A DNA stretch of 64,000 bases, taken from assembly GCF_004302915.1 (NCBI RefSeq), contig NZ_QQBI01000002.1, positions 1-64,000 of the forward strand, given 5' to 3'. The position numbers were made by a program, and so were the translations under genes. This DNA is from Komagataeibacter xylinus (lineage in GTDB: Bacteria; Pseudomonadota; Alphaproteobacteria; Acetobacterales; Acetobacteraceae). The notes under the pieces were generated by a model that was not told the origin of the DNA, did no database searches, and saw only the letters and a list, made by a program, of their open reading frames with translations. This document shows positions 32-6,321 of this stretch, one piece after another (the stretch's first letter is position 1; each line of letters begins with the position of its first letter).

Positions 32-106
32 TTTAGAGACTTCAAAAAAGCATAATTCCCAACAGGCCCTGAAAAAAGCTTCACCAAAAACTTTTATCTT
101 TTTACT
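32..106. repeat. Partial copy of intergenic palindromic element (copy A)
   Basis: This is a half copy of a repeat found in five other places in the window. Bases 71-97 carry the right half of one inner hairpin (GAAAAAAGCTTC) and the outer arm ACCAAAAACTTTTAT. A TTTAGAGAC end lies at about 33-41 and is also seen, inverted, at the right end of the 57.5 kb copy. The GCCGCC hairpin of complete copies is missing. It abuts the stop codon of the hydrogenase-like small subunit gene. The boundaries are approximate. Confidence 0.6.
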
Positions 107-547
107 TCAGGACTCTCCAGCAGCCTGCCAGCGCACCAGGGCTGTCAGGATTTCATCCGGCGCGGGCGGGCATCCGGGTAGCGACACGGTGGTGCGCGCC
201 CGCACGCCCACGCCGCCCAGCACGGCGTAATTGCCGCCAAACAGCCCCCCATCCACCGCGCAGTCTCCCACCACGGCCAGCACGCGCGGACCGGGCATGG
301 CCTGCCAGGCCAGTTCGACCACGGGCGCCATGCCCACCGTCAGGCTGCCGGTCAGCAGCAGCATGCCCGCCTGCCGGGGCGTGGGCACGAAGCGGATGGG
401 GTGATTGCCTGCCAGCAAGGCGCGTGACAGGCTGGCCAGTTCAAGCGCGCAGCCGGTGCAGCCGCCACTTTCGATATGAAAGACATCCAGCGCCTCAAGT
501 CGCGGCAGCGGCGTGCCTTCGGGCCAGAACAGGTGCAGTTGCGCCAT
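107..547 (-). CDS. NuoB/HyfI-like small subunit of a hydrogenase-related membrane complex
   Basis: The 146-residue protein belongs to the 20-kDa subunit family (NuoB, HycG, HyfI, Ehr small subunit), which carries the proximal [4Fe-4S] cluster next to the large subunit. All four expected ligands are visible: C30 and C33 in GGCTGCALE, C96 in VVGDCAVDGG and C126 in LPGCPP. The CxxC spacing is hydrogenase-like rather than the adjacent CC of complex I. It is the last gene of the six-gene operon; its ATG overlaps the upstream stop by one base (TAATG), which implies translational coupling. The intact cluster site suggests electron transfer is still its role, although the large subunit has lost its NiFe ligands. 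The family assignment is firm; the physiological role is unknown. Confidence 0.85.
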   Translation of the reverse strand: MAQLHLFWPEGTPLPRLEALDVFHIESGGCTGCALELASLSRALLAGNHPIRFVPTPRQAGMLLLTGSLTVGMAPVVELAWQAMPGPRVLAVVGDCAVDGGLFGGNYAVLGGVGVRARTTVSLPGCPPAPDEILTALVRWQAAGES

Positions 548-1947
548 TACAGGTCCGCCCCGGTGGCTGACAGGCCCAGCGAGACCAGAATCAGCTCCAC
601 ATCCTCACAGGCCGCGCCCGACAGGATCGTGGGCAATGCCTGCACCAGCGCCAGTGACGGGTCACCACACCACCAGGCCGCAACATGCCCCGCCTCAAGG
701 CGCAGCCAGTGCCAGACCGGGCCTGCCGGGCCATCGGCCCGGCCCAGACCTTCCCCCCCTCCGCCTTCGACCTCCATGACAGGGCTTTCGGGCAAGGCTG
801 CAAGCAGGGACAGGCTTTCCCCGATCTCGCTCAGGCGGGCATCAAGCCGGTCGGTCACATCGCCCTGCCCCCTTTCCGCCGCCCGTGCGTTACAGCCCAT
901 GATGCCCCAGCGGGCAGCCGTTGCGGCTGATAGCACGCCCTTGCCACGCGCCTGCGCCGCAAGGCCACGGGGCCGCCAGAACAGCCGGTGCAGGGCGGTG
1001 TGCCCTGCTGCCAGCATGGTCAGTTGCGTGTCATCCATACGCGGCTTCAGGGCGGCCGGGGGCGGGATGACATCGAACAGCAGGCGCCGCCCGCACAGAT
1101 CCCGGCAGGCCTGCCGCACCTGCTCCAGCATGGTGGCGGCCAGGGTGGCGCTGCGTCCATCGCCCAGCATCGAGCCGGCCTGTGCCAACACATCCAGATG
1201 GGTGGCAATCCGCTCCACATGACCCAGCATCACGCCTGCCGCCACGCCCTGCGCGGGCATGGGGGTGCCGGTGGCGTTGTGCAGGGCACGGGCAAAGGCA
1301 AGCTGGTGCGCGACGGTTGCTGTCGCATCAATCCGGGCGACCAGCCTGACTGCCTGCTGTGGCGCAAGCCCCCGCAGCCGCGCGGCCAGACCCCGATGCG
1401 CGTAGCCCATGCAGGGCTGCACTGCCACAATGCGCTCGCCCGGCAGGCCGAGCCGCAGATGGAACGGGGCGCGAAAATTCCCTTCCGCCGGACCATGACC
1501 CAGCACAGTGCCGCCTGCCTGCATCACTGCCGGTCCATCAATGAACTCCCGCCCCTCCGGCAGGCCAGGCGTGGGGGCGGGATGGGCCGCCAGCGGGGTT
1601 GCCACCGGCCATCGGCCCTGATCCAGCCACGGATCGCACCGCCCCCCGATGGCCGGAATACCCCACAGCTCATGGATGATGCGCTCGGGCGCCTGGGCCC
1701 CCACCCGCACGGGCGACAGGGCGGGATAGCCATCGGGTGATACCGCAACGCTGGCAACCAGCGGTGTTGGGCCATGGCGGAACAGGGCATGCACCTGCAC
1801 GCCGTCAGACCATAGCCCCAGCAGGGGCAGGTCGGTCGCGCGCAACCCCGCGATCATGGCCTGCCACGCATCAGCCTCCAGCACAAAGCGCCCGGCGCAG
1901 GGCGTGGGGGCACCGTGCCGAATGAGGGCTGCGGCATCGGCGCTCAT
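547..1947 (-). CDS. HyfG-like (NuoC-NuoD fused) large subunit lacking NiFe ligands
   Basis: The 466-residue protein has an N-terminal NuoC-like domain (about 1-125, with ERIIHELWGIP) fused to a NuoD/hydrogenase large-subunit domain (about 155-460, with NFRAPFHLRLGLPGE and GYAHRG). This is the layout of HycE/HyfG. In NiFe hydrogenases the segment after GYxHRG carries RxCxxC; here the aligned stretch reads R205-I-D-A-T-A-T, so both cysteines are replaced. The C-terminal DPCxxC motif is also absent: the protein ends in a hydrophobic tail with no CxxC. Retained bulk with all four ligands lost is the hallmark of Ehr (energy-converting hydrogenase related) complexes. The ATG at 1947 overlaps the upstream stop (ATGA). 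Classical hydrogenase activity is therefore unlikely. Confidence 0.85.
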   Translation of the reverse strand: MSADAAALIRHGAPTPCAGRFVLEADAWQAMIAGLRATDLPLLGLWSDGVQVHALFRHGPTPLVASVAVSPDGYPALSPVRVGAQAPERIIHELWGIPAIGGRCDPWLDQGRWPVATPLAAHPAPTPGLPEGREFIDGPAVMQAGGTVLGHGPAEGNFRAPFHLRLGLPGERIVAVQPCMGYAHRGLAARLRGLAPQQAVRLVARIDATATVAHQLAFARALHNATGTPMPAQGVAAGVMLGHVERIATHLDVLAQAGSMLGDGRSATLAATMLEQVRQACRDLCGRRLLFDVIPPPAALKPRMDDTQLTMLAAGHTALHRLFWRPRGLAAQARGKGVLSAATAARWGIMGCNARAAERGQGDVTDRLDARLSEIGESLSLLAALPESPVMEVEGGGGEGLGRADGPAGPVWHWLRLEAGHVAAWWCGDPSLALVQALPTILSGAACEDVELILVSLGLSATGADL

Positions 1948-3008
1948 GCCAGCACCATCCCGCCACGCAGGGCCAGCGCCAGCACCATGCAGCCCAGTGC
2001 CAGCGCCAGACCTGCCCGCGCCCGTGCCGCCGGGTCCGGTTCTGTCCCGGCAGGCGCAGCACCGGTGAACACTGGCCACAGGCAGGCCCCGGCCAGAAGG
2101 GCCACCCCCGGCGTGGCCTCCATCTCGGCCAGCAGCAACAGGGCCAGCGCCACCCCGGGCAGGAAAGGTGGCCACAACAGGCCCGGAGCCCCGGCCCCGC
2201 GCCCGGCCCTGCCACCACAGGCCAGCGCCAGCAGGCAGGCCGCAAGCGGCAGGGATGCCGTAGCAGAGGGCAGCCCCGCAGCCAGCACGGCACAGCCCGA
2301 CCAGTCCACACCGCCTGAAGGTGCGCGGAACCGGGGCAGGAGCGACCACAGCAGGCACACGCCGCCCAGAAAGGTCAGCGCGGCATGAAGGGCAGGCCAC
2401 GTTATCGCCGCCTGCGCCAGCACTGCCGTCGTGGCCAGCAGCGCCATCTGCCCCTCTGGCGCCCCCGCCGGGCGCTCCTTGCCCGACAGCACGCCACAGG
2501 CCAGCAGCAGCCCGCCTGCCAGCAGCACCGCACCGGCCTGCTCCTGCCGCGCGCCCCACCCGGCCTGCAGCACGAACAGCCCGCCCTGCGCCATGACCAG
2601 CCCCCCCAGCCCCACGCGCAGCGCGGTCCAGTCGCCCTGCCTGCCCAAGGCGAGATGCACGCCCAGCCCCAGCCCGATGAACATGACCAGCAGGTCGCAC
2701 CGCCCGCATGACAGGGCCAGCGTGGCATTGCCTGCCAGGAGAAAGGGCCCAAGCCCCGCCATGCCGCCTGCTTCCCGCGCCACAGTTTCCGGCATGAAAA
2801 CACGCACGCACAGCGCCAGCGCCGGGCTGGCCAGCATCAGCGCCTGCACCATGGTGTGGGCAGGCTGGCAGCCAACAGCGCACAACCCCATGAGCAGCAC
2901 GGCCAGCAGGCCACGCAACGCCTGTGAGCCGCCGGTTGCCAGCAGGGCAGTAAACGCCAGCACCATCCAGCCCGTCACCAGGCTGATGAAAAGAGCGGGC
3001 GACATCAT
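1944..3008 (-). CDS. HyfF/NuoN-like membrane subunit, short and divergent
   Basis: The 354-residue protein is almost entirely hydrophobic, with many predicted transmembrane segments. By its place between the HyfE-like and HyfG-like genes it should be the second antiporter-type subunit, but it is well below the roughly 500 residues of HyfF/NuoN. It has one lysine, in a hydrophilic loop (SGKERP), so the membrane-buried lysines of proton channels are missing. No PLHxWLPxAH-like signature is visible. It starts at ATGATG overlapping the upstream stop. The assignment rests on position and hydrophobicity more than on motif, so it could be a divergent NuoN-like or a lineage-specific membrane subunit. 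Confidence 0.6.
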   Translation of the reverse strand: MMSPALFISLVTGWMVLAFTALLATGGSQALRGLLAVLLMGLCAVGCQPAHTMVQALMLASPALALCVRVFMPETVAREAGGMAGLGPFLLAGNATLALSCGRCDLLVMFIGLGLGVHLALGRQGDWTALRVGLGGLVMAQGGLFVLQAGWGARQEQAGAVLLAGGLLLACGVLSGKERPAGAPEGQMALLATTAVLAQAAITWPALHAALTFLGGVCLLWSLLPRFRAPSGGVDWSGCAVLAAGLPSATASLPLAACLLALACGGRAGRGAGAPGLLWPPFLPGVALALLLLAEMEATPGVALLAGACLWPVFTGAAPAGTEPDPAARARAGLALALGCMVLALALRGGMVLA

Positions 3009-3550
3009 GATGCTGACCCTCCGGACCGGCGCGCGCGCAGCAGCATGAGGTTGAGGGCCGCTGCCGCCACGAGTGTTTCCGCCATGACCAGCGGGCTATC
3101 GGCCAGCCCCGCCAGCAGCATGACGCCATCAAGCCCGCAGGCCAGCCCCGCGCACAGGGCGGGAGCCGCCCGCGCAATGCACGCGCCCCACACCCCGCAC
3201 ATGATGGCGGATAGCCCCGCCAGGCCCATGAGCCGCCCCGTCATGCCGCCGGGCATGCCGGGCACGATCACCTGCGCCAGCACCGCAACACAGACCAGCC
3301 CACCGGCAAGGCGCAGGCCAGTGCGCTCACGCGGGCCTGCCTGCCCGTACAGGAGTTGCAGGCCCAGCAGGCCGACCATCCCCGCCTGCGCCACCGCCAG
3401 CAGGCATGCGACCCCCACCCTGCCCTGTGCCCATTGCCACAGCCACACGCATGCCGCCGCAAGCCCCGCATGCCAGGCAAGGCCGCCGCCTCGCCCCCCG
3501 GAGCCCGAAAGCGACAGGATCACCACCATGCCCAGCAACAGCACCAGCAT
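3005..3550 (-). CDS. HyfE-like small membrane subunit
   Basis: The protein has 181 residues, beginning MLVLLLGMVV at 3550, with several hydrophobic helices spread over the whole length. HyfE of hydrogenase-4 is about 216 residues and has a NuoK-like part. The position between the NuoH-like and NuoN-like genes matches hyfE and ehr operons. I chose the ATG at 3550 because it lies 2 bp after the upstream stop, whereas the longer open frame runs back into the NuoH-like gene with low-complexity sequence. It probably forms part of the membrane arm. The assignment is mainly positional. Confidence 0.6.
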   Translation of the reverse strand: MLVLLLGMVVILSLSGSGGRGGGLAWHAGLAAACVWLWQWAQGRVGVACLLAVAQAGMVGLLGLQLLYGQAGPRERTGLRLAGGLVCVAVLAQVIVPGMPGGMTGRLMGLAGLSAIMCGVWGACIARAAPALCAGLACGLDGVMLLAGLADSPLVMAETLVAAAALNLMLLRARRSGGSAS

Positions 3551-3552
3551 GC

Positions 3553-4518
3553 TCAATCCGCCCCCCGGCCCGCAAACAGCAGCACCCCGGCCATCAGCGC
3601 GCATAACAGGGCAAGCCCGGCCCGCCAGCCCGCATGCTGCCTGCCCGCCGCGACCACGAATACCCGCAGCCCCGCAACACATCCGCACGCCAGCAGCATA
3701 TGCCCGGCCCACACCCCCATTGCCTCCAGCAGCGACACACCCCGCCATGAGCGGGCCATGAGATCGGGCTCCACGATCGCTTCGGGCCAGACCAGATCAC
3801 GCGCCACCATCATCCACACCACCGCCAGCAGGTCACGTGCATACAGCGCCACCGCGCGGTCGGGGCCTGCCAGATCCTCCAGCATGGTGGCAAACAGGCG
3901 TAATGCCGCGCCATCGCTTTCCTCCACCCCCGCCAGCACCAGTGCAGCCGCCACCAGCGCCAGCGGCACGCGCACCACGTTCATATCCGCCACATGCGCC
4001 TGCCGCACCAGCCCCGCCAGCGTGCCATCGGGCAGGCACAGCCCCAGCACCACGCACACCAGCAGCAGCACGGGCTGGATCATGATGCCCATGCACGCCG
4101 CCTTCAGCCCCGCATGGCCGGGCCGGGCCAGCCCTGCCGCAAGCGCCGTGACCACAAGGGCCAGAAACGCCATTTCCAGCAACCCGCCCACGATCAGCAG
4201 GTCCGACAGGTCGCTGCCGGGCAGGCCGATGCAGAACGAAGGCACCAGCCCTGCCGCAGCCAGGCCTGCCGCAAGGCCCAGCCAGGGCGCCACCGCCGTA
4301 ACCTGCGCGCCCGCGGCCGAGCGCACCCCCGCCTGCCGCCATGCATGGCGCAGCACGCGCCAGTGGGCCAGCGGGGCGGGCGGGCGGCGCTCGCCTTCCA
4401 TGCAGGCTGCCATCCAGCGCAGCAGGGCAATCCAGACCGGCGCCATCAGTGCAACCAGCGCCATGTGCCAGCCCGCCAGCAACAGCGCCTGCATGCGTGC
4501 CGCAAGGAACGGTGCCAT
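3553..4518 (-). CDS. HyfC/NuoH-like membrane subunit
   Basis: The 321-residue polytopic protein is close to HyfC (about 315). This subunit joins the membrane arm to the peripheral arm in complex I and in group-4 hydrogenases. A stretch around GVEESDGAALRLFATMLEDLAGPDRAV resembles the acidic loop region (E/D-rich, followed by SGP-like) of HycD/HyfC. The ATG at 4518 overlaps the stop of the preceding gene by one base (TGATG). Only one lysine is present in the whole protein. The homology is reasonably clear from order, size and this loop; whether it still conducts protons cannot be told. Confidence 0.7.
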   Translation of the reverse strand: MAPFLAARMQALLLAGWHMALVALMAPVWIALLRWMAACMEGERRPPAPLAHWRVLRHAWRQAGVRSAAGAQVTAVAPWLGLAAGLAAAGLVPSFCIGLPGSDLSDLLIVGGLLEMAFLALVVTALAAGLARPGHAGLKAACMGIMIQPVLLLVCVVLGLCLPDGTLAGLVRQAHVADMNVVRVPLALVAAALVLAGVEESDGAALRLFATMLEDLAGPDRAVALYARDLLAVVWMMVARDLVWPEAIVEPDLMARSWRGVSLLEAMGVWAGHMLLACGCVAGLRVFVVAAGRQHAGWRAGLALLCALMAGVLLFAGRGAD

Positions 4519-6251
4519 CACCCCTGCCCCCGCCACGCAATGAACATGAGCGCCCCTACGCAGGCCGCCAACAGCACTACCGGCCCCGGCACCCGCCGCC
4601 AGCATGCTGCGCCTGCCACCCGGCCCGCGCCCACCCGCACGAGCCTGCGCGCCAGCCGCAGGCCATGCGCGTAATCGCGCACGAAATACTGCCGCGCCGG
4701 TGCGGCCGCGACCATATCGAGCAGCATGCGCGCGGGGTTGCCCGGCCCCACCTGCGTGAGCGGATCACCAAATACCATCCACGGTGGCACCCCGGGCGCA
4801 CCCTGCTGCCACCCTGCCACCTGCCGCGTGGGCGCGCGGCAGGCCAGCCAACGCACCACCGCCACAACGCCCCCCACCAACGCTACAAACAGGCACAGGC
4901 GGGCGGGATGCAGGGCTGCGCCCCCATCGGGCGATGTCAGGGCAACCACCGCAAGGCCGGACCATCCGCCTGCCCCCCCCGCGCCCTGCATCAACGCCAG
5001 CCACCAGCCGGGCCAGATGGAAACCAGCACGATCGGCAGCCCTGCCACCAGCACGGCCCACTGCTCCTGCGCGGGCGGGTCCGCCGCCCCCGCGCCGCGC
5101 GGCGTGCGCGGCCTGCCACACAGCATGACTGCCACAATGCGCACAAGGGCGAGCATGCGCACCGCCCAGCCCACGCCCAGCACGGCCAGAGCCAGCAGCA
5201 GTGGCGCCTCGCCCGCCAGCCCGCCCGCATGCGGCATGGAGGCCAGCAGGCGCAGCAGCATCCAGATAATGGAAAACCCCAGCAGCGGCGGCAGCCCGCT
5301 TTCGGCCAGCAGCGCCAGCGCAAACAGCGCGGACAGGCGCGGCATGAGCACCCCAAGCCCGCCCAGCCTGCCCAGCGAGAGCGCGCCCGCCTCGCATTCC
5401 ATCACATCAAGCGCGCGGGCGCCCAGCACGCCAGCAAGCAGCAGCCCCGCCACCAGCAGGTAGGTGCGCTGGGCGCAAGCGGCCATGCCCGGCAGGTCAT
5501 CGGCGCGCGCCAGCAGCATGAGGCCCGCGAGCGTGATAATGATGGCCCCCGTGCCGCCCGCCAGCCCGGTCAGGACCCGGCGCGCATCAGGAGCCCGCAG
5601 CGCCCGCCACGAGGCGGTCATGTAAAACAGGCACCCCGCCACGATCAGCACGCCACCCCAGCGCATGTCGGCCACCGCCGTGCCCGCGGGCAGGCGCGCC
5701 CACAGGCTCATGGCGGCGATCATCGCGGCGATATCGGCCATGTGGAACGGCCGCAGGCCACGCGGGGCCACGCGCAGGGAGAGCGAAAGCCCCAGCAGCC
5801 CCCGCGTGGCCAGCCAGCACAGCCCCGGCAGCAGATAATCGACGTGACCGGGCGACCGGCTGCCCGCCGCCACCAGCAGCAGGGCCATCATGTCGGGCGC
5901 GTGCCGCCTGCCTGCCTGTGGCGTGCGGCACAGCGCCAGCAGGACCCACCCCGCCCCGATGGATGACACGACGCCCCCCCCGATTACCACAAGGGCCGCG
6001 CCAAAGCTGGCCGAACAGTCACGCGGGGTGCGGGCCAAAGCTGCGACAAGCCCGAGCGGCACCAGCAGCATCACATCGGGGCCACCAGCAAAAACGCCCG
6101 GCCATGCCACCACCCCGCCGGGCAGGGCACACCCGTGCGAACAGGCCATGGCCATGCCGCACACCACCAGCCAGCCCGCCGCCAGCACGGGCCTTGCCCA
6201 GCGCGCCTGCCGCGGCAGGCCGACGCACAAAGCAGTTGCCAGCCCTACCAC
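4518..6251 (-). CDS. HyfB/NuoN-like antiporter subunit without lysine; start uncertain
   Basis: The 577-residue membrane protein is the first gene of the operon and is related to Mrp-type antiporter subunits (HyfB, NuoL/M/N). The signature GLPPLLGF (from about residue 320) matches the family GxPPxxGF motif. The position usually occupied by lysine a few residues later is isoleucine/tryptophan (SIIWML), and no lysine occurs anywhere in the protein. GTG 6251 is the first conventional start, but the open frame continues upstream for 25 codons to TGA 6329-6327 and encodes a hydrophobic IIIPVILVVALLV segment. A GGAGG lies at about 6292-6296, just before ATT 6287. Translation may therefore begin at a non-canonical AUU/AUC near 6281-6287. 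Confidence 0.7.
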   Translation of the reverse strand: MVGLATALCVGLPRQARWARPVLAAGWLVVCGMAMACSHGCALPGGVVAWPGVFAGGPDVMLLVPLGLVAALARTPRDCSASFGAALVVIGGGVVSSIGAGWVLLALCRTPQAGRRHAPDMMALLLVAAGSRSPGHVDYLLPGLCWLATRGLLGLSLSLRVAPRGLRPFHMADIAAMIAAMSLWARLPAGTAVADMRWGGVLIVAGCLFYMTASWRALRAPDARRVLTGLAGGTGAIIITLAGLMLLARADDLPGMAACAQRTYLLVAGLLLAGVLGARALDVMECEAGALSLGRLGGLGVLMPRLSALFALALLAESGLPPLLGFSIIWMLLRLLASMPHAGGLAGEAPLLLALAVLGVGWAVRMLALVRIVAVMLCGRPRTPRGAGAADPPAQEQWAVLVAGLPIVLVSIWPGWWLALMQGAGGAGGWSGLAVVALTSPDGGAALHPARLCLFVALVGGVVAVVRWLACRAPTRQVAGWQQGAPGVPPWMVFGDPLTQVGPGNPARMLLDMVAAAPARQYFVRDYAHGLRLARRLVRVGAGRVAGAACWRRVPGPVVLLAACVGALMFIAWRGQG

Positions 6252-6321
6252 AAGCAGGGCAACGACAAGGATGACAGGAATGATAATGGCCCTCCGGCTT
6301 GCTCCCGGCTGGCCGGGTGGA

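Follow-up and report, generated by a model that had tools for sequence, protein, structure and literature searches.

A predicted hydrogenase-related (Ehr) complex without ion-translocation residues is kept under purifying selection in Acetobacteraceae

Introduction

What role is left for a hydrogenase-like membrane complex that has lost its active-site ligands? Energy-converting hydrogenase related (Ehr) complexes are widespread, lack NiFe ligands, and are of unknown function, with examples in Riflemargulisbacteria, comammox Nitrospira, and the Rv0081-Rv0087 region of M. tuberculosis (PMC6349859, PMC10284858, PMC6728331). The question arises here from an operon at one end of the window, a 64,000-nucleotide stretch of Komagataeibacter xylinus DNA (contig C24 of a 3.63-Mb genome). 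A sequence-only reading had proposed an Ehr-like complex in an acetic acid bacterium-like genome. Both proposals hold: the organism is Komagataeibacter, the large subunit has a HycE-like fold, NiFe ligands are absent family-wide, and there is no HypD. That reading missed that the membrane arm of this Ehr complex is without ion-translocation residues, and the "energy-converting" part of the analogy is thus predicted to fail here. The Ehr group is already described; for the pump-less state, we found no description in the searchable literature, the coverage of which is incomplete.

Results

Six minus-strand ORFs, in the hyfB-C-E-F-G-I order given by the sequence-only reading, occupy window positions 107-6281 (to 6287 with the longer hyfB ORF). 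All frames are open, as first described, and most junctions overlap or abut (Table 1). The absence of a HyfA/HyfH-like ferredoxin or NuoE/F/G gene beside the operon was also borne out, both in the window and in related loci. Across the related loci compared, no gene for a donor, acceptor, or ligand recurs consistently beside the operon. The start of hyfB had been placed at 6290, which is slightly off. The conserved N-terminus has no ATG, GTG, or TTG codon there; GGAGG followed by a conserved ATT or ATC recurs in most Komagataeibacter loci examined (L033, L036, L037, L039, L041, L042, and L045), so translation of hyfB probably begins at the ATT at 6281. This pattern suggests a rare AUU/AUC start codon at the operon head in Komagataeibacter.

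Table 1. Features of the operon and the evidence for each assignment.
Feature	Window position	Strand	Evidence or remark
HyfB-like antiporter subunit	4518..6281	-	Pfam Proton_antipo_M E 1.5e-4; NCBIfam hydrogenase 4 subunit B E 5.5e-13; ORF P0001 = 4518-6287
HyfC/NuoH-like membrane subunit	3553..4518	-	HMM from HyfC references E 1.9e-12
HyfE-like small membrane subunit, 181 aa	3005..3550	-	Operon position; profile link to ordinary HyfE via related groups
HyfF-like antiporter-fold subunit, 354 aa	1944..3008	-	AlphaFold2 model match, length and residue comparison
HyfG-like large subunit, 466 aa	547..1947	-	NCBIfam NuoD model E 3.7e-19; alignment; structure model
HyfI/NuoB-like small subunit, four Cys of proximal [4Fe-4S] cluster	107..547	-	Pfam Oxidored_q6 E 9.6e-20; Cys positions
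Shine-Dalgarno-like GGAGG just before non-ATG hyfB start	6287..6295	-	Common to most Komagataeibacter loci examined

The nearest relatives are in Komagataeibacter nataicola, xylinus, and melomenusus (HyfG identity 84-85%). HyfG had matches in 170 of 200 Acetobacteraceae genomes, and a profile search of contigs in the genome collection yielded 381 HyfG-related stretches. The contig end, which is also the start of the window, is 106 bp beyond hyfI. A 24-base dispersed repeat, AAGTTTTTGGTGAAGCTTTTTTCA, lies just after hyfI at this end (positions 70-93, minus strand); it has exactly 50 copies in the genome (49 outside the window site) and none in the reversed control. In related Komagataeibacter loci, hyfI is followed by a convergent pssA. 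Membrane-lipid genes lie on the opposite strand beside the operon in Komagataeibacter (pssA/psd, L033 11930-13636) and in Acidisphaera (hpnD/hpnC, L057 13019-14970), and similar clusters are found near Ehr operons elsewhere in the Acetobacteraceae. These neighbours may reflect ancestral synteny or chance.

Mrp antiporter-like membrane subunits are represented by HyfB, identified by profile matches, and HyfF, identified by predicted fold. Komagataeibacter HyfF had no sequence-family match, and no sequence relative was detectable outside its own clade. Sequence profiles gave no direct link from Komagataeibacter HyfE and HyfF to their ordinary counterparts, the link being made via intermediate groups. 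The AlphaFold2 model of HyfF, of moderate quality (mean pLDDT 69), matched NuoN/ND2/NuoM-type subunits of complex I and Mrp antiporter subunits in a fold search (best Z 19.2). The HyfG model (pLDDT 88) had its best match in HycE of formate hydrogenlyase (7z0s_E; Foldseek E 1.6e-22, TM 0.83).

In NiFe hydrogenases of this type, the large subunit carries RxCxxC and DPCxxC ligand motifs. The reported replacement of the first by R205-I-D-A-T-A-T (residues 205-211) and loss of the second were confirmed by alignment, the C-terminus of HyfG reading SLGLSATGADL. HyfG holds eight cysteines, none of which is conserved in the family alignment; therefore, the four-cysteine NiFe site that would have undone the earlier interpretation cannot be built. 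None of the aligned family HyfG sequences has NiFe ligands. Identical replacements in 79 other named loci and in further genomes dispose of sequencing error as their cause. The maturation protein HypD is absent from the host genome and missing in 165 of the 200 Acetobacteraceae genomes. Five other HyfG residues (His184, Arg205, Arg246, Arg288, and Asp292) are invariant in 46/46 aligned sequences. The quinone-site Tyr is replaced (RIDA in HyfG vs. RLDY or RIEY in NuoD controls).

The four FeS cysteines of HyfI are at exactly the positions first given (C30, C33, C96, and C126). All four are present in all but two rows of a residue table of about 80 loci, the exceptions being a sequence cut by a contig end and a single C-to-S change, and also in most genomes added later. 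Genus g100 (G100 and G157; loci L158 and L161) has three of the four replaced in both of its species. Its operon is intact, and hyfG has a dN/dS of 0.14 despite the loss; the hyfI and hyfC values for this genus are unreliable, since the frames used run into non-coding ends. Because these ligands are gone while hyfG stays constrained, the role in this genus, at least, is suggested not to be electron transfer through the HyfI cluster.

Ordinary Ehr complexes, compared here from Belnapia, Azospirillum, Rhizobium, Burkholderia, and others, keep nine charged residues in HyfB: E142, K221, H228, H235, K252, K301, H348, K352, and E407 (E. coli HyfB numbering). In window HyfB and its relatives almost all nine are lost. 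Window HyfB has no lysine in the whole protein, and many conserved arginines remain. The conserved HyfC glutamates E138, E146, E210, E213, E218, and E282 are almost all gone from the pump-less clade, and among alignable pump-less HyfF sequences E143, K232, K351, and E406 are lost in nearly all rows. The TM5 Glu, TM7/TM8 Lys, TM12 Glu, and HyfC glutamates have changed together, to gaps or mostly non-polar residues. Over about 80 loci the residue states are nearly all-or-none, giving a sharp two-state split, with some charged residues retained at L053 and L072. Gluconobacter HyfB (about 450 aa) is too divergent to align, and pump loss in that genus is judged from HyfC. The pump-less group also has shorter membrane subunits, with a median of 362 residues vs. 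487 in ordinary Ehr for HyfF and 181 vs. 222 for HyfE.

A HyfG tree of 129 rows (57 labelled pump-less and 35 pump-competent) placed the pump-less state as one change on one Acetobacteraceae clade (SH-aLRT 99); the tree is of a quick kind, and some rows are long-branched. The clade takes in Rhodopila, Acidisphaera, Gluconacetobacter, Gluconobacter, and Komagataeibacter. The tree indicates that the ion-path residues were lost once, in the ancestor of this clade. Two genomes (G099 and G156) carry a pump-less and an ordinary Ehr operon side by side.

All six genes are under purifying selection. In Komagataeibacter pairs dN/dS was about 0.1-0.4 for every hyf gene and about 0.04-0.18 for most neighbour genes, as estimated by the simple Nei-Gojobori method and with noise added by the overlapping frames. 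Median values in the pump-less clade vs. ordinary Ehr were 0.11 vs. 0.14 for hyfI (the lowest of the six in the pump-less clade), 0.19 vs. 0.18 for hyfC, 0.22 vs. 0.15 for hyfG, 0.19 vs. 0.11 for hyfE, 0.28 vs. 0.19 for hyfB, and 0.29 vs. 0.16 for hyfF. Selection on hyfI and hyfC thus matches that in ordinary Ehr and is weaker on the antiporter subunits, which places the constraint on the FeS head together with its docking subunit.

Small genomes offer a second view of retention. Eleven genomes from five genera (G032, G054, G061, G070, G101, G118, G131, G136, G158, G170, and G180), 1.9-2.6 Mb in size and about 99-100% complete, appear to be without complex I because their sole NuoD-family match is the weak one expected of HyfG. 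All eleven have HyfG. The Komagataeibacter host also has a separate true NuoD (L001). The operon is present in five sampled small genomes (L147-L151), where Gluconobacter profiles picked out HyfB, HyfE, and HyfF; in L148 the profile search found no HyfC, though a right-sized ORF is in place. Frame loss in related strains would have pointed to a dying operon, and all six frames are open across several genera, including the 1.9-2.6 Mb genomes without apparent complex I. The original argument against simple decay thus gains from both the open frames and the dN/dS values, and a simple pseudogene is rejected on the same grounds.

Discussion

The operon very probably encodes a pump-less Ehr variant of the complex I/group 4 hydrogenase superfamily. 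As in other Ehr complexes, the large subunit is related to group 4 NiFe hydrogenases and NuoD and has no NiFe-coordinating cysteines, the FeS small subunit has four cysteines, and the membrane subunits are antiporter-like. Unlike them, the window clade is without the conserved charged residues of antiporter and NuoH type, and has shorter HyfE and HyfF subunits. The Ehr assignment was made within a tree set of proteobacterial hyfBCEFGI relatives.

A close comparison is with ordinary proteobacterial Ehr (Azospirillum, Methylovirgula, Burkholderia, Rhizobium, and Belnapia; L143-L146 and L074), which shares the six genes, their order, the absence of NiFe ligands, and the absence of a dedicated electron-input subunit. 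Annotations of Azospirillum, Methylovirgula, Burkholderia, and Rhizobium plasmids show the six-gene hyfBCEFGI set and add no ferredoxin-like or NuoE/F/G gene to it (the Azospirillum feature table has no hyfE entry). However, all pump residues tested are kept in ordinary Ehr (EKHHKKHKE in HyfB, DDEEEDEEEE in HyfC), and nearly all are lost from the window complex. E. coli hydrogenase 4 and formate hydrogenlyase (HyfG, HycE; 7z0s) are alike in fold and in the order of shared subunits, but the window has no RxCxxC/DPCxxC ligands, HyfA, HyfD, HyfH, HyfJ, Hyp maturation, or pump residues. Respiratory complex I is likewise related through NuoB, NuoD, NuoH, and NuoL/M/N-like subunits and the quinone-pocket His; unlike it, the window complex has no N-module, quinone-site Tyr, or pump residues.

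Since the NiFe site and ion-path residues are gone while the genes are kept, the complex is predicted to work neither as a hydrogenase nor as a proton pump. Tentatively, we prefer to read it as an FeS/ligand module that is anchored in the membrane and does not pump. The HyfG/HyfI head would hold one [4Fe-4S] cluster beside a pocket that keeps His184 and Arg205, and would, at the membrane surface, bind a small ligand or take an electron from a soluble donor. Instead of pumping, the reduced membrane arm would act as an anchor and relay a signal, so that the complex would either sense redox state or a ligand or transfer electrons without coupling. We count for this reading the invariant pocket residues of HyfG and the near-constant cysteines of HyfI, together with the two-state pump split on one clade, the dN/dS pattern, and retention in genomes without complex I. 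Counted against it are the FeS loss in genus g100, the lack of a linked donor, acceptor, or ligand gene, and the replaced quinone-site Tyr.

A broader reading, somewhat more doubtful, is that an assembly of this superfamily lost in steps its NiFe site, its ion path, and in one genus its FeS cluster, and was turned in this way into a conserved membrane machine with no energetic role, such as a sensor or scaffold. In a rival reading, which we consider rather unlikely, the complex would be a scaffold or regulatory complex without redox chemistry that binds partner proteins, lipids, or a ligand at the membrane, with a mainly structural FeS cluster. The succession of losses under continued purifying selection fits this, as does the lack of a linked electron donor; however, the FeS ligands are kept almost everywhere outside the one genus, and hyfI is the most constrained gene.

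Less likely again is a slowly decaying relic, in which Ehr function was lost in the ancestor and the genes eroded one by one, antiporters first. The shortened HyfE and HyfF, the raised dN/dS of hyfB and hyfF, the faster evolution of hyf genes than of housekeeping neighbours, and the FeS loss in one genus are what such erosion would give. Set against these are six open frames across several genera, even in small genomes without complex I, dN/dS well below 1 in all genes with hyfI and hyfC constrained as in ordinary Ehr, and coexistence with ordinary Ehr in two genomes. An Ehr complex that still translocates ions along different residues is very improbable: the antiporter fold persists in the HyfF model and HyfB has many conserved arginines, but the usual glutamates and lysines of the path were replaced together and HyfB has no lysine at all. 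A working NiFe hydrogenase misread by sequence, to which overall homology with hydrogenase 4 subunits might point, is refuted by the alignment, with ligands in none of the homologues examined and no HypD in the genome.

The FeS/ligand module remains the reading we prefer, and literature searches gave no expression or phenotype data on the operon in acetic acid bacteria. Whatever its exact role, the complex probably does a job nobody has described, because the operon is kept intact across much of the Acetobacteraceae despite its lost active site and pump residues. The pump-less clade is a natural experiment in which a six-subunit complex has been selected after its proton path vanished, and some genomes keep it even after complex I loss. 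Ion pumping can have no part in its role, and this leaves fewer possible functions for Ehr complexes as a whole. Acetic acid bacteria are genetically tractable, so the role of pump-less Ehr is testable there.
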